Shown here in pieces: positions 1 through 63,512 of a stretch of 64,000 nucleotides of DNA. The notes under the pieces were generated by a model. It had not been told where the DNA came from. It made no database searches and saw nothing but the letters and a program-made list of their open reading frames with translations. This DNA comes from Hydrangea macrophylla. Its lineage: Eukaryota > Streptophyta > Magnoliopsida > Cornales > Hydrangeaceae. Position 1 is the first letter of the stretch; each line of letters starts with the position of its first letter. The translations under genes were made by a program, and so were the position numbers. The DNA is taken from positions 88,692,588-88,756,587 of the forward strand of contig CM066987.1 in NCBI GenBank assembly GCA_033977485.1, in the 5' to 3' direction.

Positions 1-1911
1 TGGCAGAAACTAAAACCCTAAATCCTCAACAGAGGTCCAGTCGACTGCCCAGTCGACTGGGCTAAGCAGAACCCAAAATGCAACTTACTCAAAAGGGGTC
101 CAGTCGACTGATATAGGAACCCAGTCGACTGCTTTTCCATTAATAGAAGCAGTAGCCAAAATCTACAGTGTTCAGTCGACTGACAAAGGGTCCAGTCGAC
201 TGCTTCCCTTACTATTCACTTTCAGTGTCTCAAACACACGGGATCCAGTCGACTGATCCTGGGTCCAGTCGACTGCTCCCCTGCTGGCAGCCCTGTGATG
301 AAAATTAACAACACATGCTTCTCAAAACCAACAACAAACACAACCATAACTGATTTCCAACCTATTAAAATGCAATTACAGATGTTCGATTACAAGATTT
401 CCATACTGCAGAACTAAGCCAAGGATTTATTACAACATAATACAATATTCAAATCCTTACCCAAGTTTAGGATTTAAAACAAAAACATATACAAGTGATT
501 TCCCCGGCGTTCATCGGCCTCACTCATCGCACTTCTTCTTGTCTTTCTTTTTACCTACAATGGAGTACATCTCCACTGCTCAGCTATATGCTGAGCATAC
601 AATTCTAAATGTATGCTTATATGACAATTCATGGTTTAAGCATCTAAAACACATAGAAATAGTCTCTAGGGTGAGTGGTACGCATTCATCCGGTCGATGC
701 CGTAGGAGGCCCACCTCTCCCACGCATCTTGTACACTGGTTGGGCCTTCCTCCATGCCAGGTACCGTGTCCTGGTTGGGCCCACCTCTAATCCAGACACA
801 ACCAAAATTCCAAATTCCATCAAATTCACAATCCTCAAGGTTCGAGGAGCTTACCCCGGATGAATTTGCACCAAACTCCCCTTTGACCCAAGTAGACACA
901 TAACATGCTCACATAAATAGTTATACGTGCTTTTATCATAATTTCACGTGCATAATTAACGGGGCCTAATTAACACATGAATTTCGCCCGGATCCAAGAA
1001 TATCAAAAGTGATGTCCAAAACATGAAAATCCATATATTTCATAGATCTAGAATTCATACCTCGTGCGATTCTTTTCAAACTTTGAAGGATCGTCTAGGG
1101 GGCTAAATAATCGTCGAATTTCAATTTATACGCGATTCCTACAAGTTTTACCTGATTTTTCCCAAAAGTCTAGAATTAATATTTTTACAAAAATTTGCCA
1201 AACATGACCTAAGTGGTATCAAAACGTAGATCTTACCTCCACGAGTTCAAATCTAAAATCTGGAGAAAATCTGACGGACGAACGGTCGTCGATCGGCGTC
1301 GCAAAGCCCGTTGGCTCCAAATCTCCCTTCTCTCTCCTCTCTCTAGATATTTGTGAGTGTTTGGATGAGATTGAAATCTCATCCCAATCTATATATAGGC
1401 AAACTTTCGGGGAATTACGTTTACCTCCCCGCAAGTTTCTCAAAACTTCTCATTAACCCATGAAACTTTGCACAAGTCCATTTTATAACTTTACGAGTGA
1501 ATATTATAAATTTCAAAAGTTTTCGACTAAGTCTCGTTTGGGTCCAAAATAACGTCCGAAAACTATATTCTGTGGGATCTCTACACAACCTACCTTTTTA
1601 ATTAACGTATCTCTCACGTTCTCACCACAGTTCTCAAAATGATATAATCTATATCAAAGATTATCATAATTATATTACACAGGTATAATTACTATTCACA
1701 GAAATACCAGATAAGGTCAAATAACATTTAAATCATATAAATGCCATTTACTCATGATTATGCAATATGAACTTCCATGTTCCCGTGTCCTCACTGACAC
1801 CTTACCGTTGACTCACAGTCAACCACAACTCGAATTATTAATAACATTAATAATTCCAAAATCTCAAATGATGCATTTTTTAAAATCGTAAATTTCTGGA
1901 ACGGGTGTGAC
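1..1911 (-). repeat. Gypsy-like LTR, cut by the window edge
   Basis: The right end reads ACGGGTGTGACA, which on the minus strand is the TGTCACACCC start common to plant Ty3/gypsy LTRs. Minus-strand reading then gives a TATA box near 1390, a GA-rich leader near 1340 and a splice-donor-like GAGGTAAG near 1235, which fits promoter and leader on the minus strand. No primer site follows position 1911, so it is either a solo LTR or one LTR of an element lying outside the window. Family and strand are inferred from termini and promoter layout; no coding region is seen. Confidence 0.5.
38..275. repeat. Eight CAGTCGACTG palindromes in four pairs
   Basis: Exact copies of the 10-bp palindrome CAGTCGACTG start at 38, 50, 101, 122, 173, 193, 246 and 266. 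They form four pairs with within-pair offsets of 12, 21, 20 and 20 bp. The pairs recur every 63-73 bp. Spacers between pairs are not conserved, but the base after the first member of a pair is usually A and the second member is followed by a C/T-rich stretch. Confidence 0.95.
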
Positions 1912-2289
1912 AAATTCTACTTTATTTCTTCTTGTTGTTTGATAACATTGTTGATTCTCAGTGTTAAATTTCACACTATTTTCAAAATTTTGCACTATTG
2001 AAAAGTTTTAAACTAGCAGAGAAAGACTCGTGAAAAGGGGCGTCTCGACGTATCAACCCAAGACATAGAAAACCCCATTGAGTACGTGGTGAACTTAACC
2101 AACACAGCAGAAAGCAATGCACACGTCTTTTTACACTTACCAGTCACAACAGAAAGCAAAGTAAAATAGTGGCGCATGGGTCCCTACAAACACTATAGGA
2201 TGTCTTAGAGCATTTATAGGGTTCCAAAGAGTTATGTGCATGTCTTTTTAGGGGTAGGATGTGCTTTGTGTGTCTTTTGTGGAGGCTTT
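1912..2289. other. Intergenic, no feature recognised
   Basis: AT-rich sequence with no convincing coding potential or terminal repeats. Confidence 0.6.
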
Positions 2290-2800
2290 TTAGGATGACA
2301 TATGATGTAAGGCCCGTTTAATGCATGAAATTGTACATTGTAATGCAGTATAAAATTGTACGATGATTAAGTAATACTTAATGAATGAACTTATGCTTCT
2401 TTCTACATCTTAGTTCGGATCTTAGATTTGTGTAACCAAACATATTAGATTTTTGTGTATCAAAATTGGTTCTGTTTGGTGCAAGGACTAATTTCCTCAG
2501 TATATATGCATAGGTTCTGTTATGGTCCTATAAGCACTGAATGGGATTCTGCAATGCAGTGAATATTTCACACTAATAATACAGTGCAAAATTACTTCAG
2601 TGTAAAATAAAATGATAATTAAGTGCTGCTAGCTAATCATATTGAAATTGGTTCTGTTTGTTGTAAGGACTTGTTCCCTCAGTATATCTGCATATGTTTG
2701 GGTCATTTATACTATAATTGTGAGTATGATTCTGGAATTCAGTGAAAAATTCACATCGATGATGTAGTGTAAAATTGTACACTGATACTCAGACTAGTCA
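2290..2800. repeat. Diverged tandem repeat, period about 180-200 bp
   Basis: Two clearly related copies begin near 2462 and 2645, each with ATTGGTTCTGTTTG, then an AAGGACT...CCTCAGTATAT block, then a GCAGTG/AATTCAGTG block and a GTGTAAAATT block. A third partial copy near 2330-2390 shares the TAAAATTGTAC...GATTAAGTA segment. It resembles an old tandem or satellite-like duplication and has no coding capacity. Confidence 0.6.
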
Positions 2801-3640
2801 TTGCTGCCAAAAATATCTGCCTTGCTCACCAAAATTACATTGAACAAAAAAAAATAGCAATGGATAATCTAACAAATCATTTGACGTGGCACTAATAATA
2901 TGAAAATCAATAAATAGCAAATTTAATGGCAATATATGTTACAAATTGTGATATTAATGCTATAATTAAGGGATTTTATATCAGAAAGTATTTATACTAA
3001 CAACTTGCAAGATATTTGGTTGACTGATCCATATAAATTTGTATATCTACGTGTGTATCTATCTATATACGACTTAAATGGTGACTCCAACAATTTAGGG
3101 ATTAATGATCAACATTAAGATATGCAGGGATATTTTCAGTTAATAGAGTCTTATGTGTATATATATCCAGGGGTAAAATCGTAATAATAAATTTGGGGAT
3201 GGACTAATCACAATAAACTTTCTGTTTTTTTTGGACTTAACAATATAATTAAATCTTGAGTGGACCTAATAAAAAAAAATTTAGTAGATAGGGATTTTCG
3301 GGGAGATTTCAATTTCTTCTATTTCTTAATATGTAATTAGTTGGATGAAGTTCAAGTAAACTCCCTTGAGTTGCATGAAATGAATTCGAAATGATTGAGA
3401 ATGGACAAATGAAGAAATTATAATTGAGACCAATTCAATTGGCAGCTACCATTTTGGAGGGGTGGAGATTACTAAAATAGATAAAGCAAATTGACAAATG
3501 CCAAAATTAGCCAAATTGATTTCAAATTCTCCAGCACACTGAGGTGAACCACCTCTTTTATATATGTAGTGGATAAATAGATAGATTTTATAAAATTTTT
3601 ATGGTTTTGAAATATGATTGATCCATAGGCATATGTTAGC
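2801..3640. other. AT-rich intergenic sequence
   Basis: No gene, RNA or terminal-repeat structure could be supported here. Confidence 0.6.
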
Positions 3641-3645
3641 TAGCT

Positions 3646-4752: not shown

Positions 4753-4778
4753 CCAACTGTATATATATATACAAAAAT

Positions 4779-7240: not shown

Positions 7241-7243
7241 AAG

Positions 7244-13068: not shown

Positions 13069-13304
13069 ATCAATCAAAAATAGTAGGAGTCTTGTACCCA
13101 ATAACAAAGGAAAAATACTAAAAACGAACAAGAAGCAACATCAACACCAATAAACTCAAACGGAACTAACCAATAAGGTCCATAAAGGGACCGAGACAAC
13201 ACGAACGAAGAAACCACCAATCAAAATTGCCTAATCGAGTTCCGATGTATGTGAATATGATCCCTTGGATGGTTGGAATTCAAGAAAGTAAAGAAATCAG
13301 ATCA

Positions 13305-13440
13305 TGAACAGTGCTCGATGAATAGTTACTGTATGAACAGTGTCGCGTGAATAGTAACTATGTGAACAGTGTCACATGAACAGTACTGCATGAACAGTGC
13401 TGCATGAATAGAGGTACGTGAATAGTGCTGCATGAATAGT
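13305..13440 (-). repeat. Ten-copy 14-bp array in the copia leader
   Basis: TGAACAGT or TGAATAGT/A starts at 13305, 13319, 13334, 13348, 13363, 13377, 13391, 13405, 13419 and 13433, a period of 14 bp (twice 15). It lies between the primer site and gag, in the untranslated leader. The intervening 6 bases vary. Confidence 0.93.
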
Positions 13441-13494
13441 ACTGTCTGTGATGGTGGTGGTGGTGGTGTGCGGCGCAGAGAAGCCTATTTGGGT

Positions 13495-13507
13495 GGCTCT
13501 AATACCA
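13495..13507 (-). other. tRNA-Met primer binding site
   Basis: The minus strand reads TGGTATTAGAGCC directly after the 5' LTR. This matches the plant initiator tRNA-Met site TGGTATCAGAGCC with one change. Confidence 0.88.
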
Positions 13508-25175: not shown

Positions 25176-27055
25176 TGTAGAAACCCAGAATTTATTCAAG
25201 GGTATTTTGGTAATTTCGGACCAATGTGGGTCTTGTTTTGGGACAGTGTATTTCAATTTGATACATGTTGGTAGCACTTTTTGGTTAGTGGGTACACATG
25301 TGTAATATATCTTGTGGTTGGGTGTGTTATACACTAAAACCTAACCCATACCTACCCAAACCTAACCCATACCTACCCACACCTAACCTATCAAATCAAT
25401 CACTTTTGGGAGACAACTCCCTCACCTTCCCCCTCTTTCTTGGCAGCTCTCTCTCTCCCTCCTTATATCTTCTTTCTTCTTCATTTTTTGGATACACAAC
25501 TCTATCTCTATATCTCTCATTCTCTCACCATTTTGGAAGTCCAAAGTTCCCCATTGAAGCTTCACCTCCAAGCTCCATTGGAAGACATTGCAAGCACTTT
25601 TGGACTTAAGCTATTTGAAGCAAAATTTCTCCTCTCATCAAGGGCTTCTCTTTGATCTCTTCCTTTCCCTCTTTAGACTCCTATTTTGGTGTGTTCTTGA
25701 ACAAAGAACACAAGAGGTAGATTTCATTGACTAAGTGCACTCCTCTTTCTAATCTCATGGTTTGCTATGTGTAGGACTAGAGATGTTACATACTAATCTT
25801 GTTTCATGACTTTTCCTACATGTTTAGCTTTGATGGTTAGTTGCTCATTATATGCATGTCTAGTTAATTTAAATGTTTAAACCTAAATGTTAAATGAGTT
25901 GTTATGATTTAAATTACTCTATGTTGCTAGTAATTTCTTTGATGACTTAAATGATATCTATGCCCTACTTGAGATCCTTGATTTCTTGTTTAGTTGTTAT
26001 GAGTTATTATGTTCACTTCATAATATCGAAACCATAGAAATGACATTGTAGTTGCATAATCATTGTAGTCACATTTCATAGTCGCCAAGTCGGCTTAGCA
26101 TTCATAGCATTGGCTTGGGAGTATGAATTTGATAAAATTCCCCCCGATTGGGGAATGACCTTTGAATCCCCGTTTGGGGTTGTAATTTAATGAAATTCCG
26201 GAAGCGGGTGTGAGGTGAGGAAGGTTGTTTGTGATCCTTAAAACATTCGAAAACGCAAGGTCATATTCGGTTAGCTACCAGAGATCTTGTATGCTACAGT
26301 CACGTTGGAGTGGCTCGCATCCGGTGTTGAGAGTGAGTGGCTATGGAATTTAGTATTGGGAAGTTGCATGGTTCGGCCTTACGGCTATTTGCATTGCCAC
26401 GGCGGCAAATCATTGCACCGCATGTCTTAGTATGATTTTAGAAGTAGTAGTACATTTCTTCAATGCTATCTACTGAGCCGTCGTGCTTAATGAAATCTAT
26501 AAAACCACTTTGTTTCAGGTGAAGTTGACAAGGGCAAGGCCCACGAGTAGTCAACTCGGATGTATCTTTTGAAGACGTCCCTCGAGGAGTCTTATTTTGA
26601 CAAGCAACTCCATATTTAGTAAATGGATAGAAAGGATTTGTAACAGGTGTAATCTAATGCCTAGACATTAATAGATTACTAAGCTTACATGTTTCTTTCC
26701 TTTCCTTTTTGTATCCATTAATGAATCATGTATATGGTGATCTTAGAAGCTGTAATCAGGCATATGTTTAGCCCTTGCTTAATAACTCTTTCTTTTAAAC
26801 CTTGTTGATCTTGTAATATATTGGGGTTCCTTGTTAAATTATGTTTTAAATACTTCTTTACAAATTCCTTTCAAAAACCAAACTATGTTGGTTGACCCTA
26901 TTTGACCCGTTTGGTCCTCGTGGGTCAACCCTTGACTTATTAACTTTTCTTTGGAATCCACATAGGATTCCCCTATATGCTTCCGCCTTGTGGATTGGTC
27001 TTTGTAGAACTATCCCTTGCTTTCCTTTATGTGGTTTGGTTTTCGGGGCGTTACA
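25176..27055 (+). mobile_element. Solo gypsy LTR, TSD GAGAC
   Basis: The 1880-bp insertion begins TGTAGAAACC and ends GGGGCGTTACA, and is flanked by GAGAC on both sides (25171-25175 and 27056-27060). Removing it joins the two halves of the copia reverse transcriptase in frame at the conserved ETFSPV block. It has no coding region, primer site or polypurine tract, so it is a solo LTR left by LTR-LTR recombination. The ending and the 1.9-kb size fit chromovirus (Tekay/Del) LTRs, which is inference. A CCTAACCCATACCTACCCA repeat lies at 25338-25388. Confidence 0.9.
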
Positions 27056-44345: not shown

Positions 44346-44529
44346 TGTTGGAATTAAGGGATTTTATCCCAGGTTTTATTGTGTTTTTATGGGTCATGTT
44401 GACCATATTTAAGTTGATTGATCTCTTTCCTTTTCTAGTTTATTTTCTTTCCTTTTTTATTTCTCACTGTAATAGTATATATTCTTGGGATGTACAACAA
44501 TAATATTTGTCTTTTCCCAATTCTCTTTT
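44346..44529 (+). repeat. 3' LTR
   Basis: Follows the polypurine tract AAGGGGGAG at 44337-44345 and matches the 5' LTR except for about five bases. Confidence 0.9.
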
Positions 44530-44540
44530 GTTTTTTTAGG

Positions 44541-45925
44541 ATGGATGTGAACATGAGCCACGTAGAGGCCTTTTTGGTGCTTGAAGAGGTTATGACGGAG
44601 ATCATATATATGTGTGCAATGTATATGATATTAGTCCAACTTGTGTATGGTAGGCACTTTGCTAAGCATTTGGTTAGGAGTCGAGCTTTAAATAGAGTTG
44701 AGGCTCAAGTAGAGCATTTAGATCGAATCATTGGTGGAAGTGACATAACTTGTATTGAGCAACTACGTATGGATAGGAACCCATTTGGCACACTATGTGG
44801 CCTTTTACGTACCGTTGGACTTTTGAGGGATGCAAGACATGTTAATGTAGAAGAACGAGTAGCTATGTTCTTGCACATATCGGCACATCATGTAAAGAAC
44901 AGAGTGATAAAATTTGACTATTTGAGATCGGGGGAGACAGTGAGCAGACACTTCAATACTGTGCTTAAGGCAGTATTGCGATTGCAAGGGATATTATTGC
45001 GTACTCCTGAACCAGTTCTAGAAAATTCCACTGATGACATATGGCGGTGGTTTAAGGTAGCTTTTTTTTTTGCTTAGTTTGAACATTCTATCTTATTTGT
45101 CGAGAATAATCTTTATACTTTTAAAATGTTTATATTATAGAATTGCCTTGGGGCTTTAGACGGCACATACATTAGAGTCAATGTTCCTGATATTGACAAA
45201 CCGCGGTACCGCACAAGGAAGGGGGAGATTGCTACAAATGTCTTAGGAGTGTGCTCTATGGACATGCAATTTATATATGTTTTACCGGGGTGGGAATGGT
45301 CTGCAGCTGACTCTAGGATTTTGCGCGATGCCGTTACACGAAGAAATGGATTAAAGGTCCCAACCGGTAATTACAAATAAGTGTTAACACATTTTGACAA
45401 ACAATTTAGGCATTTTCATGGTAGAACTTAGTATTTGCTAATTGCAACACAGGTTACTACTACTTAGTAGATGCTGGCTATACCAACGGTGAAGGATTCT
45501 TAGCACCATATAGAGGCCAACGATATCATTTGTCCCTTTGGAGGGAAGGATTAGCTGCCCCCCCAAAATCATGAAGAATTCTTCAATTTGAAGCATTCAG
45601 TAGCTCGTAACGTGATTGAGCGATGCTTTGGCCTTCTCAAACTTCGGTGGGCAATTCTTAGGAGTCCATCATACTATCCGATCAAAACTCAAACTCGAAT
45701 AATAACTGCATGTTGTCTTCTCCATAATTTGATTAAAAGAGAGATGTCACTTGATCCACTCGAACATCAGTAGAAGAAAACAATCAACCACATGACTTTG
45801 GAGATGAAGTAATTGACACCGTAGAGCCATCAAACCAGTGGACTGATTGGAGGAGGAACTTGGCAATGCAAATGTTCAATGAGTGGCGAGCGAATCAAGG
45901 GCACAGAAATGAGCAAAATGAGTAG
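44541..45925 (+). pseudogene. PIF/Harbinger DDE transposase, two frameshifts
   Basis: Three exons are visible. Exon 1 (44541-45056, MDVNMSHVEAFLVLEE onward) ends at TTTAAG|GTAG. Exon 2 (45141-45366) starts [16 protein letters not shown] and includes [15 protein letters not shown]. Exon 3 (from 45453) reads YYYLVDAGYTNGEGFLAPYR, then [20 protein letters not shown]. The aspartates of ALDGTY and AADSRI and the glutamate of VIERCFG form the DDE triad, all present. A C7 run near 45560 shifts the frame, and a second one-base shift near 45769 cuts the tail; downstream sequence stays coding in the shifted frame to TAG at 45923. The copia LTR lies 12 bp upstream of the ATG, so the native 5' exon or promoter may be separated. 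Confidence 0.9.
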
Positions 45926-46149
45926 ACCTTAGTGTTCATTGTAATTTTATGATGTTTATGGAAATTTTTAGAAGCTCCTACGTATTTATTCGCTAGTTGT
46001 GTGTGAGACAACTTTTTTTATGATGTTTATTTAACCTTGAAGGCATGTTTATAGCGTGCAATTATTATTGTAAGTGACTTCTAGTAATCATTTGTATTTT
46101 CTACTCTATATTTGTTATTGTTACATGCCACGCTTTATATACTAGCAAT

Positions 46150-47189
46150 GGAAAATGGAAGCTCTAGCCAACAAGGAGACAAAACTGATACAAGAAGAGT
46201 GTGGACCACAAGAGAAGAGGAAGTGTTGCTTCATGCTTTCCATGACATTTGTGCTACTGGATGGAAATGTGATAATGGTACTTTTAGGGCTGGTTACACG
46301 AGTGTGTTAGAGAGAAACATGGTGACAACCATTCCTGGATGTGACTTAAAGGCAAAGCCACAAATTGAGTCAAAAATCAAAACATGGAAGAAGCAATATA
46401 ACAGCCTTGCTTCTGCACTGATGACTAGTGGAATTGGATGGAATGATACAGAGAGATACCTTGACATTCAAGATGATGATGTGTGGGACAATTATGTGAA
46501 GGTGACAAAAAAAAATGTCAATGCAAATATTCAAATTTTCCTACTTTGTTTGTTTGCTAATAATTTATTAAACATGTAAATGTTGTTGTTTTTTTTTTTT
46601 TTTCCTTTTTCTTTTTTCTGTCCTTTAATAGAAAGATCCATCCATCAAGAGAATGCGGAACAAGCCTTACCCCTATTATGAGGATTGGTGCTTGATATTT
46701 GGCAAAGAAGCTCCAGGAGATGCTCTTGAAGACATTGAACTCGAGGAAATTGATGGAAATAATGAGACTGAAGTGGTGGCAGATGACATGGATATTCCAG
46801 TTGATACTGATGGATCAGCGAGTGTTACTAAAACTCATACTGATAAAGGAAAAAATGTTGTGAAACAAGGTATAAGAAAGAGGACTAGAGGGGCTGATGT
46901 GTGGGTTAGTAGCATGAATGAAATGACCATTGCATTCGGTGCTTTCTTTGATAATCCTAGAAATAAGATGTCAGATATTGCTCAAAGGATTGGGTTTGAC
47001 TATGACATGGCCGCTGAGAGGAGGAAGGTGAATTGACAGCTGACTAAGCTTGGCAACTTGACTATGACAGAAAGGCTCAAAGTTGCCTCGTTGATTGTGA
47101 ATCACCCCCACCGAGTTGATCTATTCTTTAGCTTGCCAGAGGATGAGCAGGAGGCTTGGGTGATGATGTTGCTTGCTGGTGAAACCTAG
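46150..47189 (+). pseudogene. Harbinger Myb/SANT-like protein, premature stop
   Basis: This is the second protein of PIF/Harbinger elements, which binds the termini and helps transposase enter the nucleus. Exon 1 starts MENGSSSQQGDKTD and holds a trihelix/Myb-like domain (RVWTTREEEVLLHAFHDI, AKPQIESKIKTWKKQYNSL, DVWDNYVK). An intron with a T-rich end runs to TAG near 46631. Exon 2 has KRMRNKPYPYYEDWCLIFG, an acidic stretch and RGADVWVSSMNEM. A TGA at 47034-47036 interrupts it, and the same frame stays open to 47189 (LTKLGNLTMTERLKVASLIV). It is transcribed in tandem with the transposase about 225 bp upstream. Confidence 0.85.
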
Positions 47190-49100: not shown

Positions 49101-50183
49101 CCCAAGCGACAATGAGTAAACCCGCCAATTGAAGGTTTGAAGGCCCAAAACAAGTATTGGAACTTGACCACATCATGGGTGTCCGTAGGATTCATTTTCC
49201 ATTGCACCATTGTCCCCAGGTTGTATTTTTGAAGAGTTGACATAAATCTAGGCAATTTTCTATAAGACTCATCTCAATCTTCAAAAACTACCTCTATTGC
49301 TTTTTTCCTCGCACACCATGCCTTTTTTGTACGAGATTGTGGATTTCTAGCTTTCCTTCACCCTCTCAATGACCAAATTGATTTTCATATAGGGATCACG
49401 TTGCACATAACCCATAATTAACTGCGCTATAAAATTCATATCTAGATTAACATTGTACTGGCTAGTGTGTGGGTATACACAATGGTGATCGACGTTATAC
49501 TGTGTAATTTGAAAACCACCCATCAATAATTTTTTTGAATCCCGCAGGCACCATGTGCACCAAGTTTTGCACTTAACCACCCAAAGTTTTTGATTCATTT
49601 TAACTATCACATATTCTCGGTCATTCTTTGTGTGATAAAACTTTACGGCTTCCTGGAGATACTGCTTATCTCTGAATGTCATTTTCTTCTTTCTCTCAAC
49701 TTTTTGAGAGTCCCATATTGGAAAAGTATGGTTGCTATCACGAGTAGTAAGTTCACAACCCTCATCCCCCTCCAAGGTTATAAAAGAAAGGTATCAGACT
49801 GTGAGGCTCTTGTACATGAGGGGGAGATGTCGTAATGACACCCTGCAGACCCACTATTTCGCCTTCTTTATTAGAATCTGAACCATCCATCATTATATCT
49901 TCCTCTTCCTCTTCTTTAAGGGATCTTTTGTGTGCGCACCACCGCTGTCTACAGTAATATCTCTAGTATTGTCCTCAAGTCTTACCAAGTGCTCGACGAG
50001 ATTCATATACCCTTCATCGGTTGACATTGTTTTACGAAAATTCTGTCCACTGAAGTAATACCCTGTATTTTCAGATGCATGGTAATATAAATAAGACTCT
50101 ATATGCTTGTGTGAACTTTTGGTGTAAAGCCTTTTCCAATTGATTGGCCTTTTCTTAATCGATTGATCTTGGTTTATTCTCAA
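49101..50183 (-). pseudogene. MuDR-type transposase, N-terminal part
   Basis: Minus-strand reading starts in the block at 50183-49893 (NFRKTMSTDEGYMNLVEHLV and an acidic and basic tail). It passes stops, and from 49775 gives the MuDR N-terminal domain: FRDKQYLQEAVKFYHTKNDR, VVKCKTWCTWCLR, YPHTSQYNVNLDMNFIAQLI. After a stop at 49347 it continues with SYRKLPRFMSTLQKYN and VVKFQYLFWAFKPSIGGFTH up to 49101. The catalytic part resumes at 31286, across the 17.8-kb insertion. The first residues may belong to the neighbouring LTR, because the palindrome cluster starts near 50136. Confidence 0.85.
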
Positions 50184-50801
50184 TCGATTGAAGTCTTCTC
50201 AATTGATTGAACTTGTGCCTTCTCGATCGATTGAACCTTGAAACTCTGCCGACCTGATTCCATGACATGGACCCTTTCCCAATCGATTGAACTTCTATCA
50301 ATCGATTAAACTTCTGGCTGACCTATTTTTAATCGATTGAACTTACTTCAATCAATTGAAAGTGTCTGATTCTTAACCCTTGTGTTTGCCACCTGCCTCT
50401 CGTGTCATTCTATATATATATATATGAGTTATATTTGTGTGTGTGTGTATGTGTGCTGTTTTGGGTAGAGAGAATATATATAGAGAGAGTTGTATGTGTG
50501 TATGTTTAATATATATAATCGTGTATGTGTGTTATACATATACCTCTCAGGTAAGAGAGAAGAGAAGAGAGCAAGGAGATGGAAGGAATACGAAGAAGAA
50601 GAGCAGACGATAGGGAGAGGAAGAGAGACAGAGAGGAGAGAGAGCACGTCACCACCATAGCCTCCGCCAATCGAACTCGGAACGCCACTGCCAGAATGCC
50701 AGAGTGAGGTGAGTTTAGTAACTCACTAAAGGGATTATTCTAGGATGATATCTGTATGTTTAGACGTGTATATAGTGACCCTGATGTACCTGTTCGTCTC
50801 T
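50111..50801 (+). repeat. Gypsy 5' LTR, left part
   Basis: The start is not clear and lies between about 50070 and 50135. The sequence holds an ATCGAT palindrome cluster, then a TATA box near 50411-50424, then a GA-rich leader with a GAGGTGAG donor near 50707. It is continuous with 57193 onward once the CACTA element is removed (TSD TCT). Confidence 0.6.
50136..50358. repeat. CAATCGATTG palindrome cluster, upstream of TATA
   Basis: Nine exact or one- to two-mismatch copies of CAATCGATTG (often followed by AA) start near 50136, 50156, 50181, 50200, 50224, 50280, 50299, 50330 and 50349. Offsets of 19-20 bp recur, with other gaps of about 24-56 bp. The spacers are unrelated in sequence. Confidence 0.93.
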
Positions 50802-50856
50802 CACTACACCATATGGCCTCATTACTAACGGATATTTCTGTTGGGAAAAGTATTTC

Positions 50857-50992
50857 TAACGGATATATCCGTTAGTATTTTAGCGTTAGTAATATTACTA
50901 ATGGATATATCTGTTAGAAAGCTACTTACTAACGTTGTTTTTCAACTGAATACTAATGGTTTGTCAACAATTTCTAACGGATATATCCGTTA
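50857..50992. repeat. Left subterminal TAACGGATATATCCGTTA repeats
   Basis: The 18-bp palindrome is exact at 50857-50874 and 50975-50992, and occurs with two mismatches at 50899-50916. Half-sites CTAACGG and CCGTTAG lie nearby. The right counterparts start at 57102 and 57128. Confidence 0.93.
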
Positions 50993-51009
50993 GTAATTTT
51001 CAAAATCCG

Positions 51010-52198
51010 TTAGAAATATGCATAAATATAAAATAATAATAATTTAATTATATACTTCCCAATTATTATTATATATATTTTTTGTTGCACCTAATTAACA
51101 ACCATATTAATTTATACCGAACACAAAAAATAACAAAATTAATCTATATCCAACCCAACAAAGCATAATTAATCTCTATGAAACACACAAAGCTCAATAT
51201 ATCTATAACAAAACAACAAATATAATTCATAATAATCATAACAAATAGAATCGTGAATACTCTACTGTATTATTTGGAATATTCTCTATGAATCCTAAAA
51301 ATAAAACATCAATATATATAAATTACAAACATGTACTTCACAATATTCTCAATGAATCCTAAAAATAAAGCATCAATGCATATACATTATACAAGCATAT
51401 ACTTTACACTCCCGCCCTATGACTACTGCTCCATCCCTTTGATGTATCAAATTAAACCCACGATTATCACCTATGATTCTGGAATTCTGATTTCTCATAT
51501 TATATCCTGCATAGATAAAAGTAAACAAAATCTTTCAATGGCATGAAAATAATATCCAAACCAAGACATCTCTCAATATGTATACATCCAAACCAAGCTG
51601 ACAACAAAGGCATTAAAACTACAAAAGTTGTGATAATACGAAGCTAATGTTGCTTTCCTGCTTATAAAGTAATGAACGACAAGACCTAAGTATACATGGA
51701 TAATGCCCCCAATGTTCCAAAGATAGAATTGAAAAATGACTAACTAATTTGTGGTTTGAAGGTTTACTCATAAAAAAGTCCACTTCAACAATCACATCAG
51801 CATGAGAAAGAGATAAAAATCAAGTGAATAAAATCATAAATAAATTCTCCAATTCTCCACTCATGCCGCATTACCCATTAATAACAATATTCGCCCTCTC
51901 CCCTTTTCACCACTTCCCAACCGAATGGTCTCTATTCCAATTCAAGTAACACTTTGCATTTAAACATTAAAACACCAAATAAAAACTTTTCATTACCATT
52001 AAACCAATACATTGTTGCACCCAAGTTCCTCTAATTCATACTTGGTCTAAATACGTGTAGAGGCAACCAAGCAGATGTGTGTTATAATGGAAAAATTCAT
52101 GTAGGGGACAAAAAGCTAGGTACACTATGAAAAGGAACTATCTATCAAACTATGATTGAGTTTTGACAAATAAAATATATACAAAACAACAAACTTAC
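51010..52198. other. CACTA interior, non-coding
   Basis: AT-rich. A roughly 67-bp imperfect tandem duplication (CTCTATGAATCCTAAAAATAA... repeated as CTCAATGAATCCTAAAAATAA) spans 51281-51412. No gene supported. Confidence 0.6.
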
Positions 52199-52382
52199 CT
52201 GGTGGGAGAGATTGCTTCCACTTATCGTCCTTCTCTGAGTCAAACACACAAAGTGTGTAGAGGTACTTGGAGCAACGAACCTTGAACTTGACAACATCTT
52301 TGCTCCTCTTGATTTTCACGGAACGTGCATCTTTCCTTCTGGCGGTGAGAAGGAAATCCTTGATCTCGTGGATCTGCTTAGG
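52199..52382 (-). pseudogene. RPL38: Captured exon of ribosomal protein eL38
   Basis: The minus strand encodes [20 protein letters not shown], then [19 protein letters not shown], then [12 protein letters not shown] and KQSLPPG. That is almost all of the 69-residue large-subunit protein eL38 except the first methionine and the last few residues. The exon ends at CCACCAG|GTAAGTT, an intact splice donor. The 5' side reads CTCAACCTAAG, so the AG acceptor normally expected before CCTAAG has been lost. The ADKL motif usual in plant eL38 is DDKW here. The final exon (LSVQDL in plants) was not found downstream. It is carried inside a CACTA element, so it is a transduplicated fragment, not the functional gene. 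Confidence 0.92.
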
Positions 52383-53195
52383 TTGAGTATCAAAAGATAA
52401 GAAGGAAATAATTAGCACAAAATGATATTGACCAAAATATAGCAACATAGGGAAACAAGGTAGCACTACAAGAAAATTGGCATTTAGTGGCAACAACTTG
52501 GTTAATAAAGAAAAAGATTAATTGGTTAATAAAAAGAAAAAGAAAACTAGAAGAAGAGATATGTATAACAAGTAAAGGAGGTGAATTTAGATTTTAAAAG
52601 AGAAATATGTTGTGTATTTGTAATGAAATCATTGTACTTTCATTGTCTAATTTTTGTATTGAATGGCCAAACAGAGGCGACTAATTATTTCTAATGGTGC
52701 TGAGAGTTATTCTTTAAGGGCATTCATCAATTATATAGCATTCTATTATGACCCTGAGCTGAAGAGGAGTAATCATGGCCCTACAATTCAAATTAGCATC
52801 TTCTAGCCGTCGGATGTAAGTCGCCATTAGTGATGACGTCACTTTGGCATATAGTGAGAAGATCAAAACTCGTAGTAGAAACAAAGGCAATTTTGAACAT
52901 AAACTGAATATAAATAAGAGAAAATAAGGAGATTAGGGCAAAAAACAGAGCATATTCTGTTGAGGATTCAAAGAATATTAAGATTTAATGTGAAAAGTTC
53001 ACGAAATAAAGAAGAAATTGAAAGTTGGTGATTAAAAATTGGCAATAATTTCAAAAAAAAAAATTGGTACTAATACACTAGACAAACCTGACCTTTGGCA
53101 TTTTTGCACAAAGTAAATTCTCTTGGACTCAAAGGTATACAAGATTTGACCATATATAGATAACATAAAATTGAATTTGAGCAAAACATTTCAGC
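52383..53195. other. CACTA interior, non-coding
   Basis: AT-rich, no recognised gene. It may hold the upstream intron and promoter of the captured eL38 gene. Confidence 0.5.
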
Positions 53196-53201
53196 AAAAC
53201 C

Positions 53202-53362
53202 GGGGCTGTTCCAGTAAAATAGGGGCTGATTGGGGCTGTTTTTAGCTCTTTTAGGGGCTGAAAAATGCAGTAAACTCACCATAACATGGACTGTTTTGGG
53301 GCTGTTTTAAGGTCTACTTATAGGCAGGAAAATGCAGCAAAACATGGGCTGTTTTAGTTCCT
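53202..53362. repeat. GGGGCTG(TTTT) cluster
   Basis: GGGGCTG occurs at 53202, 53222, 53232, 53254 and 53298, most often followed by GTT or GTTTT, and alternates with AATGCAGCAAA/AATGCAGTAAA blocks. It is an irregular minisatellite inside the CACTA element. Confidence 0.75.
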
Positions 53363-56300
53363 AAAGGTATCTTGCTATCTTAGATAAGTTAGCGTTAACC
53401 ACATTGTCAAGAAACTAACAAAAACTCAGCATTTCAACTTGGGTCCACAATCCATAGACAAAACTATTTCAATTGAAAGCTAAAAGCTCAAACCTCCTAC
53501 TAATTATTAAGTTAAATAAACTCTTAGCTATGGTGGATTGATTCTTACCATGTCATTGGGTCAAACATGGCTGGGCCAAACCAAAACATTGAAAAACTTG
53601 TTAACATTATTTTTTTCAAACAAACAAATAATGGGAAGGTGGACATTGAAGTAATTCAAAATAATACACCAATGGATTATACACTCTAAACTAATCAACC
53701 CCATACCGAAAAACTGAAATAACAAGGCATATGGTTCCAACTATAGAGCTTGAAGCCGGCAAGAGAAGGTCCCAGAGGGAGAAAGGGAAATGAGATTTGG
53801 GTTTTTGATTTGGGTATGCATATGGGTGAAAGGGAGAGAGAGTGACCAAAAAGAGTATAAGATAGAGGGAGGGCTGATAGTGAGGGTATGCGTGTGTTTG
53901 TTTAAATCAAACTTTTTCTTAGTGGATGACTAAGAAACACATGCTTTTCTTTATAAAACTAAATTTCCAAACACACGCTTTGGGTAAGTGAATCCTTTTT
54001 TTTTAGTAAGTAATGTGTTGAAGTAGTTTAACTTACTAAATTTCCTACATCGTTGCCCTCTGACTAAAGTTTACTGTTGTACTGTTGCAAACTTGTGTTG
54101 TACTCTTGTAATTGCTTATACATGTCATTTAGCGATGATATCCGCAGTTATGAAATCCATATGAGATGTAATTTTTAACTGACAAGAAAAATGAAACAAA
54201 AGTAATCTAAATGAACCGATATTACATATTTTGATATTACCCTCTAAACGGACCTTTAATGAACAAGCATGGTTAACAAAGCAAAAATCTGCTACAATCC
54301 GTAAAGCAAAAATAGGCAGCAAAGTCAAAAGCTACATCCGCAAAGCAAAAATCTGCTTCAATCAACTGACAAGAACAAGCACAGTTAAAAATATTTTGAT
54401 ACATTACTCACATTTCTAACACCCATCCAAAAACTTTATGGGTCTCCGGATCATCTTTCATCCTCAAAGAAACATTCATCCGCATAGCTGAAATTTTTTC
54501 CAGTAGATACTGCAGCAATCACATCAGTTACTAACATTATTCTATGAGGGAGAGTGTAAAAGTTTAAGAAAAGATGAACATTGAGTTTTCTCATCCACTA
54601 CAGCCTCTGCTGCACTAGCAATAGCATTCTTCATACTGTAGATGTGTTCTGCTCTCCAATATTTTGTTCAGAACTCCTTTTCTGTCATCTAGATCTAGTG
54701 TACATACCAACACGATGTATAAAATGCAAATATTCAACACTTAAGTTATCTTGAGTGAAAGAGAAATTAAATTAGTAGAAAAGGGGGTCTTTCACAACAT
54801 GAACTTCCTAAATAATGGAAAGATACATTTTTTTCACCTTGCTGGGAACAAAATTCAGGAATAGAATATCTTTTCACCTATCAGTGATAACCACAAGCTA
54901 GATATCATAGAAGTAGTTGTTGGTTACAGTAAGTTGAACAATAATTGTGCTTTAGAAATTTTAGAGTTTTTAATCTGATTCTTTGGAGTCAGGATTACAT
55001 ATGCCATAAAACGTACCTTTAGAGTTCAACGTTTGTGGCTTTAAAAAAAAGTATGTGTTATTATTTAATTGAAAAATATGCTTTAGTAAACACCCAGTTC
55101 ACACGCGAAAAAAAAAAAAACTCAAGCCCCTAATTGATGATTACACTGTTTAGTTATGGCCTTAGGCGCAACACCCAAATTTATGGTTGTGCAAATTGCT
55201 ACTATAAAACACATAGTTCATATAATAAGAAGAGATAAAAAAACCAAATTGAAGATTATGCTTATGCAAAGATGAGTTCTTTACTCCAAAGAACCATAGA
55301 ATAATGAGGGAAGGAGTCTAACTCAGTGGTGTGTTTTTGGACCCCTGTAGATCTTGTTCATAGTACGGAAGAGAGGAGTTTAACTCAATGGTGAGTTTTG
55401 TTTTTTGTTTTTGTTTTATATAAGTAAATCAACGTGTGTTTTTAATAGCAAGCCTTCCAAGACAATTTCCATGTCTAAGATATCCAGACCATAATAATGG
55501 AGCACTTAGGAGGCTGATTTAGCCAAAGACCTTTGGCATATGTTTGCCATGGGATCTATATAAATGGAACATAGGATATGGTAGGCGTATCCCGGAAATA
55601 TCCAAATCACCACTTATTTTCAGTAATCAGTGGAAAATAAGGAAATATCCAGCAGTCCCCAACCTTTCTTTGATGAAAATCCATATTCTCAACTCTCCAG
55701 AGCCTATGAGTTATCCCATGTGCTCATACCCACAAATTAAGAAATGATAAGCTGCCCCAAACACATTAAGGCCCTTTTACATAGAGAAGTGATATAATCT
55801 CTGTTGTACTTTAGCACAAAGTAAAAAAGAAACATTGACAATATGTAACTAAGTCTACTCGGAAAAAAGTTGAATCGTAACAAATTTTTCTACCCAATAT
55901 CTAACGAAGAGACGCCCTTCATACGCAATTGTCCACAGTTTTCTAAATATACACAGATATGCAAGAAATATGAGAATGTTCCACATATAAGCAGTAAGCA
56001 CCAATGCAAATATGCAACAATGCAAAGGAGCCATACCGCATGACTCTAAAATGTTGACCAAAGAGGGGACACAGAACACCAAAGAAAGGAAACAATAGGA
56101 TTATAATACTATCTAACTTAGATAATAAAATAAAATAAAAACCAAACAAACTAGGTTTTCCCTTCAAAAACTGTTGCCGTCAGACCAAATAACTAGAAAA
56201 AGAAAATGTTCCAGAATCACATGATTTAAAACACGTTGGAAACACCTCCAGTTGAATAAGTACAACTGTGTACCTCAGATAGACGCTCTGTATCATCGTA

Positions 56301-56395
56301 TTTCTTTCACTTACTGGTTCCCTTTCCTAAACATATAAAAAATCATTACTTTATTCTTCAAAAACTCAAACATCACACACAAAAATGCACTGATT
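53363..56395. other. CACTA interior, non-coding
   Basis: About 3 kb, AT-rich, with a GCAAAGCAAAAATCTGCT-type repeat near 54275-54365. I see no transposase domain on either strand. Confidence 0.55.
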
Positions 56396-56631
56396 TGTGT
56401 GTTTGGCTCTCTGTGTGTGTGAGAGGGAGAGTGAGACAGGGAAAAGTTTAGGGAACCGAGAGAGAGGGTGTATGTGTGTATAATCGCGTGCGTTAGTGAG
56501 AGAGAGGAAGAGTGTGTGTTTATGTGTATGTGTATGTGTGTGTGTGTCTGAGCATATGTGTATAGATCTATGTGTGAGCGTGCAGATCGGTGTGTGTAAG
56601 AGATGGAGGATGTGTGTGAGTGTGCAGATCT

Positions 56632-56639
<8 letters not shown>

Positions 56640-56709
<70 letters not shown>
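56640..56709. repeat. (GT)n(GA)n microsatellite
   Basis: About 13 GT units followed by about 21 GA units, inside a wider GT/GA-rich region from 56400. Confidence 0.95.
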
Positions 56710-56712
<3 letters not shown>

Positions 56713-56785
56713 AGAAAGATTACCAGATCTTTGGCGATGGCAGAGGCGGCGACACAAGCGGTGAAGGCGGTAGCGACGATCTAGA

Positions 56786-56884
56786 GTTTAGAAGAAGAAG
56801 AAGAAGGAATGAGGAAGAAGAAGAAAGGGGATCTAGGGTATAGAAGAAGAAGAAGAAGAAGAAGAAGAAGAAGAAGAAGAAGGA
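56786..56884. repeat. GAA trinucleotide tract
   Basis: Two GAA/AGA blocks with about 4 and 15 units, broken by a short GGGATCTAGGGT stretch. Confidence 0.93.
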
Positions 56885-57101
56885 AGAATACCTTTCAGGC
56901 AGTGGCGGCAGGCGGCGGGTGTGGGAGGCAGCGGCGCTCTCTTTCTCGATCTCCCTTTTTCTTTTCTCCCGCTTTCTTTCTATTTTTTTTAGAGCCCGCT
57001 GGTTTTGTTATTTTTCAGAAGAAGAACAAAGGTATTTTATTATTATTTTTTTTAAAAGAGGAACAAAATAATGCAATTACTAACGGATTTTTTCTGATTT
57101 C

Positions 57102-57145
57102 TAACGGATATATCCGTTGCTAATTAGTAACGGATATATCCGTTA
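57102..57145. repeat. Right subterminal TAACGGATATATCCGTTA repeats
   Basis: An exact copy at 57128-57145 and a one-mismatch copy at 57102-57119, with half-sites on both sides, mirroring the left end of the CACTA element. Confidence 0.93.
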
Positions 57146-57192
57146 GAAATCATAAAAACTGTCCATTAGAAATCTAGCCATATGGTGTAGTG

Positions 57193-58828: not shown

Positions 58829-58834
58829 AGATTT

Positions 58835-59053: not shown

Positions 59054-60530
59054 TGTTGGCTCGAAATGGAAGCCTTAGAGGAGGGGGGGGGGGGGGGGGG
59101 TAAAAAGGTTTTAGCAGAAAATAATCTTTTTTAAAAATTAATTGCAAATTAAATACAATCACAAACGATAAAGTAAAGAGAGAAGGGAAGAGACACTTGT
59201 AAACCGAGTTTTCAAGTGGTTCGGCAATCCGCACATTGCGGCCTACGTCCACCCCTCAAGAACACCTCTTGAGGATTCCTTTAATCCGACCTACTTCACG
59301 GGTGTAGATCAAACCGCTACAAGAGTCTTCAACTCTCCCAAAGAAGAACACCTCTCCTTTGCATGCAAGGGTTACTAACCCACACTCTTTACAAATGATT
59401 TGAATTTACAAATTGATCTCTCTCTCTCTAGAGTGGATAATACAATTAAAGGCTCATACAACAACTCCTTAATGAATGGATAATACAAATGAAAACTCAC
59501 TACAGTTTACTCTCTCAAGAATTACAATTGAAATCTAGAGCAAATTGATTTTTCACTCAAACTAGGGCTCAAATGGGAATGATAATTAAACAAGATGTTT
59601 TAATGATTTTATTAATGTTTCTTCTTATTTATGACCCCTTAAAAACATCCCTATATATAGCTTTTGAAAGATTATGGCCGTTTGTAGTGGTTAGGGGGAG
59701 TAAAAATACTTTTTGGAGAGTTTAGAAAACTAGTCGTTAGTGCATTTTGCGCAGTCTAATCGACTGGATCAAAGGTTCGGTCGAATGGGAAGTTTATAAC
59801 AGAGAAGAGACATTTTGCTGTGAAATCCAGTCGACTGAACAGTTCTTCAGTTGACTGAACATTACCTCCGGTTGACTGGACCCTTCATTTTTCAGTCGAC
59901 TGGTTTTTTGCTGTTTTTCGCAGACTGACACATGTTCACTAAAACGGCCATAACTCTCTCTACAAAACTCATTTTTGTGATCCGTTTGAAGATTCGGAAA
60001 CTCGATTCAAATACCTTTCTAACCATATAAAACTCAATATCTAATTCCTTACCAATTGGATCAGGTGTTCCTTTAAATTTGACCCATCTGTAAAGGGTTC
60101 TTGATTTTGACTTAGCCACTTGAAAACTTTTGTGAAATAAATTTAATTGAGTGGTCCAAGTATGTTTAGGTCCTTGAAAGTATTTTAAAGTATGAGAGAA
60201 AGGATACTAAGTCTAGTTAAAGTTACTTGAGCCCCTATGAGTGATTGATCAAAATGCTTAAAAGTAGGGTCTTCAAGCAAGGATAAAAAAAATCTTCAAG
60301 TCTTCAAGCTTGATCCTTGTTGAGCTCAATCACTCTTGGGTCTTCACCATATGCTATCTCAAGATGCCAAACAAAGTTAGAACATTTAAGTTCATAAATC
60401 AAGAGATTAGCACAATGAAAATGACTTGGTAATCGATTGGAATAGAACAAATACAAACATGCTATTATCAATAGATTTGTCATCATCAAAATAAATATAA
60501 ATAATGCCTTAAAGATATTCAAGGCTAACA
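59054..60530 (-). repeat. SIRE-like copia 3' LTR
   Basis: The minus strand starts TGTTAGCCTTGAATATC right after a purine tract and ends CGAGCCAACA, giving 1477 bp. The GGTTCGGCAATCCGCACATTG segment near 59218 is of the type found in SIRE/Maximus LTRs. A minus-strand TATA box (TATATATAG) lies near 59655. An 18-base G run sits at 59083-59100. Confidence 0.8.
59752..59902. repeat. CAGTCGACTG palindromes in the copia LTR
   Basis: CAGTCGACTG at 59828 and 59893, with variants CAGTTGACTG at 59848, CGGTTGACTG at 59869 and CAGTCTAATCGACTG near 59752. Offsets are 20, 21 and 24 bp. On the minus strand the cluster lies about 100 bp upstream of the TATA box. Confidence 0.9.
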
Positions 60531-60545
60531 ATTTCCCCCTTTTGA
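60531..60545 (-). other. Polypurine tract of the SIRE-like element
   Basis: The minus strand reads AAAAAGGGGGAAAT directly before the LTR start TGTTAG. Confidence 0.85.
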
Positions 60546-61015
60546 TGATGTCAAAACATCCAATAGAGATATAGTAATTTAAGAATAGTAAGTGTCATTT
60601 TCATGTTATTATTCAAAATTACAAGATATACAAAAATATGAATCCAAGAATCATTTTTCCATTTATAAAAATCTCTATCATATCATCTCTAAGAATGTTC
60701 ACTAACATTCTCCCTCTATCATTTTCCTCCTATTTGACAACAACAAAAAAACGGGGGTTTGAACTAAAAGTTCCCCCCCAAGATTAGCAAACATATCATG
60801 GAGACAATAAGATACCAAAATTATTAAAGTGAACATAGTAATATGTTCCCCCTCAATATATGCATATATGAATGAATATCAATTTAAGATCAAAATTATG
60901 CTTTATCTTTCCTTAGGAGGATGGGATAGCTATGAACATCAAAACAACGTATCATTCAAAAAGCAAGCATGATATCACAATCAAAATAAATTAATCTAAC
61001 TTACTCCTACTAGGC
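60546..61015 (-). other. Internal region of the SIRE-like element without pol
   Basis: AT-rich non-coding sequence. Protease, integrase, reverse transcriptase and RNase H would be expected between gag and the polypurine tract but are absent. Confidence 0.7.
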
Positions 61016-62542
61016 TTAAGGTGAGAGATTTAACCATTGTCCCAGCACCTCTTGAATGCAACATTTGCGAAAGGAGGTAGGAGAGGATCCCTTCACAACC
61101 CAAACCATATTAATTTTCTTGCAAAATGAACATTTGTAATTAACATGCCCCTTTTTCATGCAATAATGACAAGTTACATGGGGGAGGGTTTCATTTGAGA
61201 TTGATTCATTAACAAAGAAGCTTTTGTACTTCTTTTCCTTGTATCTGGGATTAAATGCCAAACCGGCTTTGTCAAAAACACAGTTTTGCTTTCCCAGAAG
61301 CATATTCAAATTTTGTTCACTTTGTGTGAATTTTGCCAAAGTTTTTGTCAAATCATCCATCTACTTTCTCAATTCAACCTTTTCTTTTTCAATAAATTCA
61401 CTTGATGGTTGATTGGTTGAAGCAAGCTTTTTCTTTTCTCAAAATTTCATTTTGAGATTTTAAATCATCCAATTGCTTTTTCAACTCCAAATTTTCTTTT
61501 TCAATCTCATTTGAAGATTGTGCTCTTAAAACATGTTTTTCATTTTCAATATTCAAAGATTCATTTTGGGATTTCAAAGTATTTAACTCATTTGAAAGTT
61601 TGGAAAAATTCTTTTTAAGAGTTATGTATTTAGATCCCAAATTCTCTAACTCCTCATGTAACTCCACAAAAGCACATTGAAGCTCATTATAGTTAGGAGA
61701 TTCAACAATAGATGTAGGGTTAGAGTTTACCAAATTCTCTTGTGCACCTTCTTGGTCACATGAGTCATCATCGGATGAGTCATCATCGGATGAGTCATCA
61801 TCATCCCAAGTTGCCTCTTTGGCCATTTTCTCATTCTCATCATCTTCATTTGCAAAAAGGCACACTTTTTCCTCTTCATAAGTTTGGTTAGTTGTAACAA
61901 GAAAATTTTCTAAACATAACCAAATTTCATTTGCACTAGAGTATGAATGAATTCTATTATATGAACTATCATCTAAAGAATTATATAGAATTTTCATGGC
62001 TCTAAGATTCAATAGAAGGTTATTTTGATTACTTTCATTCCATTCAATCTTTGGTTTAGGAGGAAAACCAATTTTGACAATACTCCAAAGATGGTAGTCA
62101 AGTGAACGAAAATAAAGTTCTATTGTCCTCTTCTAATGATCATACTTATGATCACTCAGCAATGGAGGAGTGCTAATGCAATAACCTTCTTGAACTTTGT
62201 TTCCATAGAAGTTGACTCAACATTTTGAAATTCAATAAAATCAATAGAGTCATTGAAAGAGCAAGAAGTAGAGGTTACCCCATTGTCAATTACCATGAGG
62301 CAAAGATTGACAATCTCATCTTCATTTGAATTGTTGTTCGATGATTCACTCTCGGAGCAACTTTGAGAGGCCTTCATTGCCTCATTCTTACGTTGTTCAT
62401 ATTTAGGAGGCTTCTTTCCCAATTTTTCTTTCTTTAGAAATTTTGTGAATTTTTGAGTGATCAAATCTATTTTCTCATCCTCATCACTCTCATGATCTTT
62501 TCCCTTTTTCTTTGAGCTTGAGGACTTCAAGGTGATTGACAA
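61016..62542 (-). pseudogene. SIRE-like copia gag remnant
   Basis: Reading from 62542, the first block has a KKKGKDHESDEDEK-type basic and acidic region and EDEIVNLCLMVIDNG. From 62012 comes the Gag core AMKILYNSLDDSSYNRI, SSANEIWLCLENF, an acidic DDDDSSDDDSSDDD run, then a long coiled coil (ELHEELENLGSKYITLKK, NELNTLKSQNESLNIENEK). The last block has LGKQNCVFDKAGLAFNPRYK and a CCHC knuckle CHYCMKKGHVNYKC near 61175-61135. This is the SIRE/Maximus Gag layout. Stops and frame changes separate the three blocks, and the order is unusual in that an acidic EDEIVNLC block lies first. Pol is lacking, so it is a deletion derivative or a non-autonomous LARD-like element. Confidence 0.8.
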
Positions 62543-62790
62543 GCAGGGGTATTTGTAAAATACGACAACGCTAAAAGAAGAAAATGTATTAATTTAGTTT
62601 ACAATTCCTTCATTTATCTGTAATTTGAATTGCAACGCCAATTTATACACAATTTGATTAAACTATGATAAGTTGTGTGTTTTAGCTGTATTTTGTGCAG
62701 ACTGCAGTTGCTGTGTGAAGAATTGAAAGATAAAGATAAAAGGAAGTGCTGGATTCTAAGGAAGACAATCAAAAGCTGAAATACTGAGCC

Positions 62791-62899
62791 TGATCGATTG
62801 AAGACCATTCGATTGATCGAATGTTCGATCGATCGAGAGAAGCTCAAGCGATCGAAGACCCACAAGTTCGATCGATCGAGACATGTTCGATCGATCGAA
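62791..62899. repeat. TTCGATCGATCGAA palindrome cluster, upstream of TATA
   Basis: Six exact or near copies of a 14-bp palindrome have centres near 62797, 62814.5, 62830.5, 62850.5, 62873.5 and 62892.5, so offsets are about 16-23 bp. The cluster ends about 70 bp before a TATA box. Confidence 0.93.
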
Positions 62900-63384
62900 C
62901 ATGGCTTTTATCAGAATATACGCGCACGCAGCAGAAGCGGGTTTTTAACCCTATCATTAGGTCTTAAGTATATATACTTGTATTAGGTACGTCCAGAGGA
63001 GGCCCCCATGACTTTTATCAGTTTTTAAAGAGAGAGATAGAGAAGTTTCAAATTTTTGTAGGTTTTGAAGGTTAGATATTGCTTTGGGATTGGTTTTTTC
63101 TAGTTTAATACAAGTTTTCAGTTCCAGGTTACTTTATTCATTTTCTGCACTTAGTTTATAGTAGTATAATCTGTGAAATACATAATCTTGCATGTTAGAC
63201 ATAGTTATACAACTAGTTTTTATAGTTTGCATGATTAAAACACAACCAAACAAAACTCTAATGGACTTCTACGTTAAAAACAACACTGTGACACTCCAGA
63301 CCATGTTTGAGTAGTTTTCAGGTTGGGAGATCATGATGAAACCGTGATCTCAGGCCTCTACCATGTAGCAGATTAATTTCTGTG

Positions 63385-63512
63385 TTCGATCGATCGAAGT
63401 TAGTTCGATTGATCGGACCAAAGACATTGTCGAGCGATCAAAAATCGAAGTTAGTTCGATCGATCGAGGGAAGAAGATGTTCGATCGATCGAAAGCACGT
63501 CGATCGATCGAG
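63385..63512. repeat. TTCGATCGATCGAA palindrome cluster, second
   Basis: Copies are centred near 63391.5, 63410.5, 63436.5, 63461.5, 63486.5 and 63505.5. The first and last pairs are each 19 bp apart, and the other gaps are 25-26 bp. Confidence 0.93.

Follow-up and report, generated by a model that had tools for sequence, protein, structure and literature searches.

Arrays of short palindromes are known from Sirevirus retrotransposons, whose long terminal repeats (LTRs) carry RM boxes, family-specific palindrome arrays that lie upstream of the LTR TATA box and are often CpG islands (PMC2829016). RM palindromes include CGGTCGACCG (Vitis) and ACAATCGATTGT (Tnd-1), the boxes are reported as Sirevirus-specific with classic copia elements lacking them, and a regulatory role has been suggested for them, but not shown by experiment (PMC2829016). 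In maize Sireviruses an excess of small RNAs maps to LTR palindrome clusters, and palindromic arrays in the cis-regions of other element families are stated in general, with motifs and families unnamed in the available text (PMC10760457); repeat arrays, some of them palindromic, as cis-regulatory regions beyond Sireviruses are prior art for the general idea. Plant host factors also act on LTR motifs, such as HSFA2 on ONSEN and WRKY on EVADE (PMC12786077). Here we analyse a stretch of 64,000 nucleotides from Hydrangea macrophylla (contig CM066987.1, positions 88,692,588 to 88,756,587; hereafter the window), which contains six clusters of palindromes (C1 to C6, Table 1) in LTR or LTR-like sequences.

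These clusters are arrays of one degenerate palindrome, and we read them as likely docking sites where a dimeric host protein would activate a retrotransposon promoter, giving this reading a probability of roughly 0.57. RM boxes have the same form and position, and the Vitis and Tnd-1 palindromes are nearly the motifs of this window (PMC2829016), hence the view of an earlier sequence-only reading, that no named system matches, does not hold. The kind of array is already known, as RM boxes; added here are the steps of 19-21 and 24-26 bp, which the available text of PMC2829016 does not describe for RM boxes, and the single degenerate motif behind three palindromes.

The sequence-only reading located all six clusters and their motifs correctly. 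It had also counted three different palindromes, changing with the element family, and here it has to be revised: CAGTCGACTG, CAATCGATTG and CGATCGATCG each fit CRRTCGAYYG, and hybrid sites occur in C2 and C3 (e.g. CGATCGATTG and CAATCGATCG). All three are variants of a single degenerate dyad site, which measures about 12-14 bp with its flanks. Across 43 sites (at most two mismatches) the dyad symmetry spans 10 bp, arm position 6 is complementary in 28 sites and position 7 in 16, and complementarity past position 7 is down to 8-12 sites. The core is TCGA in 33 of these sites, TTGA or TCAA in eight and GCGA in two, a CpG transition thus being seen in eight of the ten non-TCGA cores. CpG-to-TpG changes on both arms separate CAATCGATTG from CGATCGATCG, and also CAGTCGACTG from the Vitis RM palindrome; judged by these letters, methylation decay could have produced CAGTCGACTG from CGGTCGACCG and CAATCGATTG from CGATCGATCG by CpG deamination.

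Together the clusters make up 1,013 bp of the window and hold 23 of its 25 perfect palindromes of at least 10 bp with a TCGA core, whereas 60 dinucleotide shuffles averaged 2.58 such palindromes and never exceeded 8. Palindromes of this length with a TATA (n = 42) or ATAT core (n = 34) are commoner in the window than those with TCGA, which is the sole core inside the clusters. All 26 exact matches to CRRTCGAYYG lie inside clusters and none outside (0.2 per shuffle, 10 shuffles). With one mismatch there are 43 inside and 8 outside (9.9 per shuffle), and with two mismatches 62 inside and 95 outside (126.7 per shuffle), hence the motif is mere background outside the clusters. A scan for palindromic 8-mers, not AT-only and with at least three copies in 400 bp, gave five 8-mers, each taken at the first such place; four were in clusters and the fifth, GATATATC, was in the end of a CACTA transposon. 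No such array was present in the control stretches of the same window, which were four copia LTRs and two stretches of 1.5 kb preceding a primer-binding site (PBS); two of these six held one unrelated palindrome each. The array-free copia LTRs echo what is reported for classic copia elements (PMC2829016).

Two step sizes recur within the clusters. Leaving out an overlapping site at 62818.5, the 43 sites give 37 neighbour distances, of which 19 are 19-21 bp and ten are 24-26 bp. When sites were placed at random within these spans (20,000 placements), a null that ignores tandem duplication and the ties it creates among distances within a cluster, the mean was 3.8 (maximum 11) for the short step and 2.9 (maximum 12, P = 0.00055) for the long one. 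With the site at 62818.5 kept in, 18 of 38 distances are 19-21 bp, and for perfect sites alone this holds for 6 of the 17 neighbour distances under 100 bp. The remaining distances are five of 50-56 bp, which may be two steps with one site lost, and three of 12, 15 and 31 bp. C3 and the first half of C2 show short and long steps in turn, C4, C5 and C6 have a mixture of both, and C1 has the short step and 51-53 bp only, apart from one distance of 12 bp. The spacing of 19-21 bp given by the sequence-only reading therefore stands, though a second step goes with it, and its further proposal, that paired sites share a helix face, is weak. Ten of the 19 short steps measure exactly 19 bp (1.8 turns), the long steps of 24-26 bp (about 2.4 turns) are roughly half a turn out of phase, and the vector strength of the spacing at 10.5 bp is 0.28; what is kept is therefore not a single helix face.

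On the docking reading, a dimeric host DNA-binding protein would bind neighbouring CRRTCGAYYG sites and would then activate the retrotransposon promoter, the role suggested for Sirevirus RM boxes, while the arrays would grow by local tandem duplication, with selection holding the sites and the spacers drifting. We infer the binding of a protein, its dimeric and host-encoded nature, activation rather than repression, and duplication with selection on the sites. As protein sites the cluster set has its simplest reading, and the sequence-only reading's candidate, a cis element that a dimeric factor would recognise, is likewise upheld here, though conditionally. Position is also informative in part, with TATATATA downstream of the cluster end at 53 bp in C2 (at 50411), 70 bp in C5 (at 62969) and 93 bp in C4 (59659-59652, sense direction), the chance of finding it 40-100 bp downstream of a random point being 0.022.

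Several points weigh against docking sites of this kind. Protein binding and promoter activity are predicted from sequence, and CRRTCGAYYG is not known to us as the site of any factor. According to the available text of PMC2829016, a factor common to the RM boxes was not found, and literature searches did not turn up a common reader of these boxes either. Neither the 500 bp after C3 nor the 488 bp between C6 and the window end contain TATATATA, only weaker TATA-like letters, and the TATA box (TATATATA, 1390-1397) of the LTR-like sequence around C1 is some 1.1 kb upstream of the cluster, which has 37 bp left to the window edge in the sense direction. The upstream-enhancer position is hence established for three of the six clusters. 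Furthermore, the comparison of sites with spacers (see below) covers C1-C3 only and is partly circular, since sites were picked by motif match, and the sequences around C1, C2/C3 and C5/C6 are presumed LTRs.

The spacing could instead mirror the unit length of neutral tandem growth, in which slippage multiplied a short self-complementary unit that has since been decaying, an explanation we regard as improbable. Indeed, C1 consists of decayed tandem units of about 73 bp, each with a site pair (self-match of 70.7% over 116 bp), and the units of C3, likewise decayed and with two sites apiece, measure 44-45 bp, hence the spacers of these two clusters are related and not, as had been claimed, unrelated. 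Tandem Repeats Finder also detected a 19-bp array at 62821-62903, and local repeats are common to C5 and C6. However, in aligned units with borders placed by hand, the sites, which were chosen by match, are better kept than the spacers, as the sequence-only reading anticipated, with column identities of 1.00 against 0.39 in C1 (where all eight sites are identical and aligned spacers 39% identical), 0.92 against 0.49 in C3 and 0.70 against 0.44 in C2; such a pattern is consistent with units that were duplicated and then came under selection for their sites. The two step sizes, moreover, are repeated in clusters with different surroundings: outside the arrays, the stretches around C1, C2/C3, C4 and C5/C6 share only matches of 13-28 bp (E at least 0.03). 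We also consider it unlikely that the palindromes act as RNA, with transcript hairpins feeding small-RNA production and silencing, as correlated in maize Sireviruses. The small-RNA excess over the maize palindrome clusters (PMC10760457) speaks for such a role, and all six clusters here, whichever strand is taken, fold better than shuffles (z between -2.9 and -9.4), compared with a mean z of -0.52, a 5th percentile of -2.54 and one extreme of -21.6 in 60 background windows. When only the 10-bp sites were kept and the spacers shuffled, an excess remained in C5 (z = -3.6) and C6 (z = -2.3), but with 14-bp sites kept the excess was gone in all six clusters (z = -0.80 to +0.99, on the assumed sense strand). 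The spacers are therefore not tuned to RNA folding, to which they add nothing, and this mildly favours protein docking; the sites could still have an RNA role of their own, which may coexist with protein binding as a side effect.

Quite remote, in our view, is a reading in which the element's own protein recognises the sites, or in which they form a methylation or anti-silencing sensor. This explanation would be in keeping with the way in which transposases recognise the subterminal repeats of DNA transposons, with the clustered palindromes (GATATATC) near the end of the CACTA element in the window, and with the symmetric CpG of each intact site. However, a protein specific to one element would not lead one to expect a motif class common to several LTR-like sequences that appear unrelated, and decay of the core is mostly by CpG transition, hence the sites are not spared methylation. 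The low number of CpG in the spacers (5 seen against 17.8 expected from base content) carries little weight because the whole window is CpG-poor (observed/expected ratio 0.54).

Table 1. Palindrome clusters and associated elements in the window (distances are between neighbouring site centres, in bp).
Feature	Positions	Strand	Description
C1	38..275	-	8 exact CAGTCGACTG sites; distances 12, 51, 21, 51, 20, 53, 20
C2	50136..50358	+	9 CAATCGATTG-type sites: 3 exact fits to CRRTCGAYYG, 6 with one mismatch; distances 19, 25, 19, 24, 56, 19, 31, 19
C3	57224..57387	+	8 CAATCGATTG-type sites, 6 exact fits (two are CAATCGATCG hybrids); distances 19, 25, 20, 24, 19, 26, 21
C4	59752..59902	-	6 CAGTCGACTG-type sites, 2 exact fits; distances 21, 50, 20, 21, 24
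C5	62791..62899	+	CGATCGATCG-type sites, 6 used, 3 exact fits
C6	63385..63512	+	CGATCGATCG-type sites, 6 used, 4 exact fits; distances 19, 25, 26, 25, 19
Sirevirus-type 3' LTR	59054..60530	-	TGTTAGCC...GAGCCAACA; directly behind terminal polypurine tract
Four polypurine-tract copies	60532..60854	-	60854-60846, 60779-60771, 60717-60708, terminal 60543-60532
Broken gag-like frames	61016..62593	-	Upstream of the LTR bearing C4
CACTA-type DNA transposon	50802..57192		CACTACACCATATGG...CCATATGGTGTAGTG; 3-bp TCT target duplication; separates C2 and C3 stretches

Four LTRs or LTR-like sequences had been proposed as carriers of the clusters, among which the LTR bearing C4 is the sole established one. 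Multiple polypurine tracts (PPTs), an AT-TG attachment site and an inverted repeat at the junction of PPT and 3' LTR are Sirevirus hallmarks (PMC2829016), and all three are present here, the terminal PPT joining the attachment site as AAAAGGGGGAA-AT-TGTTAG and an 11-bp inverted repeat, CATCATCAAAA, lying across the LTR junction (60550-60540 / 60491-60481). A large gag with a CCHC knuckle and a coiled coil is a further trait of Sireviruses. The broken gag-like frames include a CCHC knuckle (CHYCMKKGHVNYKC at 61171) and, at 61398-62132, matches to Retrotran_gag_2 (E = 2.9e-4) and to a leucine-zipper model (E = 2.2e-4), both below the Pfam cut-off. The two frames flanking this region gave no Pfam match, a search of the protein collection at E 0.001 gave no relative for the gag-like frame, and no pol, whose reverse transcriptase would place the element in a clade, was found between the gag-like frames and the LTR.

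The LTR-like sequence of C1 starts on the minus strand with TGTCACACCC at about 1912, and this start and the end of the C2/C3 sequence, GGGGCATGGCA, resemble the ends of Ty3/gypsy Tekay elements. The gypsy-type assignment made earlier is thus plausible for the elements of C1 and C2/C3, but unproven, as no PBS and no internal coding domain was found beside C1, C2/C3 or C5/C6. The strand of C5/C6 is uncertain because its TATA box is itself palindromic. Such arrays are likely to occur in LTRs outside the Sireviruses, next to a Sirevirus LTR that has the palindrome of C1 (CAGTCGACTG in both C1 and C4); this, if true, would be real news, and it hangs on the lineage calls. A wider proposal, tentative and on balance doubtful, is that one dimeric host factor, or a small group of paralogues, reads CRRTCGAYYG in both copia Sireviruses and gypsy elements, which would have evolved the same paired array of 19-21 and 24-26 bp independently, so that RM boxes would be an address used by plant retrotransposons in general rather than a trait of Sireviruses. 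If a motif class and a fixed spacing are indeed shared by unrelated LTRs of one genome, the search for the reader would narrow to a single factor family, and each site, being also a CpG target, could tie the activating signal to the site of silencing.

Both ends of the CACTA element (50802-51010 and 57076-57192) contain clustered palindromic repeats of TAACGGATATATCCGTTA type, presumably like the subterminal transposase sites of En/Spm elements. Beside the C2 stretch, at 49347-50198 on the minus strand, frames resemble by eye the N-terminal part of a MuDR-type transposase, with no Pfam match, and C2 starts within the upstream end of the second of these frames.

Within its LTR, C4 agrees with RM boxes in having clustered palindromes upstream of the TATA box. 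It differs in its core and in where the array starts. A CGG-CCG core is found in 12 of 13 known RMs, Tnd-1 being without (PMC2829016), whereas the C4 consensus is CAGTCGACTG and the CGG arm is kept in two of six sites. RM arrays start 200-400 bp after the PPT/LTR junction, whereas C4 is found some 630-780 bp into its LTR, counted from the LTR start at 60530. RM boxes have at least eight copies per element, counting LTR and linker, with 3-14 in the 3' LTR (PMC2829016); C4 has six sites (two exact) in one LTR, the rest of the element being missing. RM arrays are mostly CpG islands; C4 has a GC content of 0.44 and a CpG observed/expected ratio of 0.84 (0.52 for its LTR). RM boxes are reported from Sireviruses, and no Sirevirus hallmark is within reach of C1, C2/C3 or C5/C6. 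Tandem or palindromic enhancer boxes linked to transcription also occur in the U3 of Tnt1 and Tto1, in few copies and with other sequences, both being classic copia elements. The symmetry of Tnt1 box I is named in PMC2829016. The palindromes of maize Sireviruses are likewise clustered in the LTR cis-region, but have the motif CACCGGAC(N3)GTCCGGTG (PMC10760457, PMC5311732), and the evidence for them is small-RNA mapping, compared with sequence alone here.

Literature searches with CAGTCGACTG gave nothing relevant by title among the matches listed, those with CAATCGATTG included PMC2829016 among the matches listed, and TCGATCGATCGA combined with retrotransposon led to a pepper tandem-repeat paper. 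No paper naming such arrays in gypsy LTRs was seen in the titles and abstract starts of the matches listed. PMC6911290 was rejected as a precedent, as its available text concerns palindromes at insertion sites, a different matter, and the available text of PMC10794571 has nothing on these arrays. Relatives in IMG/VR were also rejected: pairs of CAGTCGACTG and CAATCGATTG were present in 1 and 4 contigs, fewer than for TGCA-core controls (3 and 10), and five IMG/VR stretches had 2-3 exact motif sites each and no arrays, IMG/VR being uninformative on plant LTRs.

Scans of the whole window for tRNA genes and Rfam families were empty. Directly behind a copia 3' LTR (44346-44529), the region 44540-47040 contains a DDE_Tnp_4 fragment (45144-45380) and a Myb/SANT-like protein (46088-46576), a pair which we take to be PIF/Harbinger-like. 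A decayed 28-29 bp tandem repeat (CATGAACAGT / CATGAATAGT) is found at 13303-13444, just inside a copia element and beside a PBS-like site at 13496-13507 (minus strand). A single open frame at 27008-27589 combines a match to the plant mobile domain (PMD) with a copia reverse-transcriptase fragment. At 31835-32362 there is a perfect 264-bp tandem duplication, likely very recent, about 230 bases before a PBS-like site at 32589.

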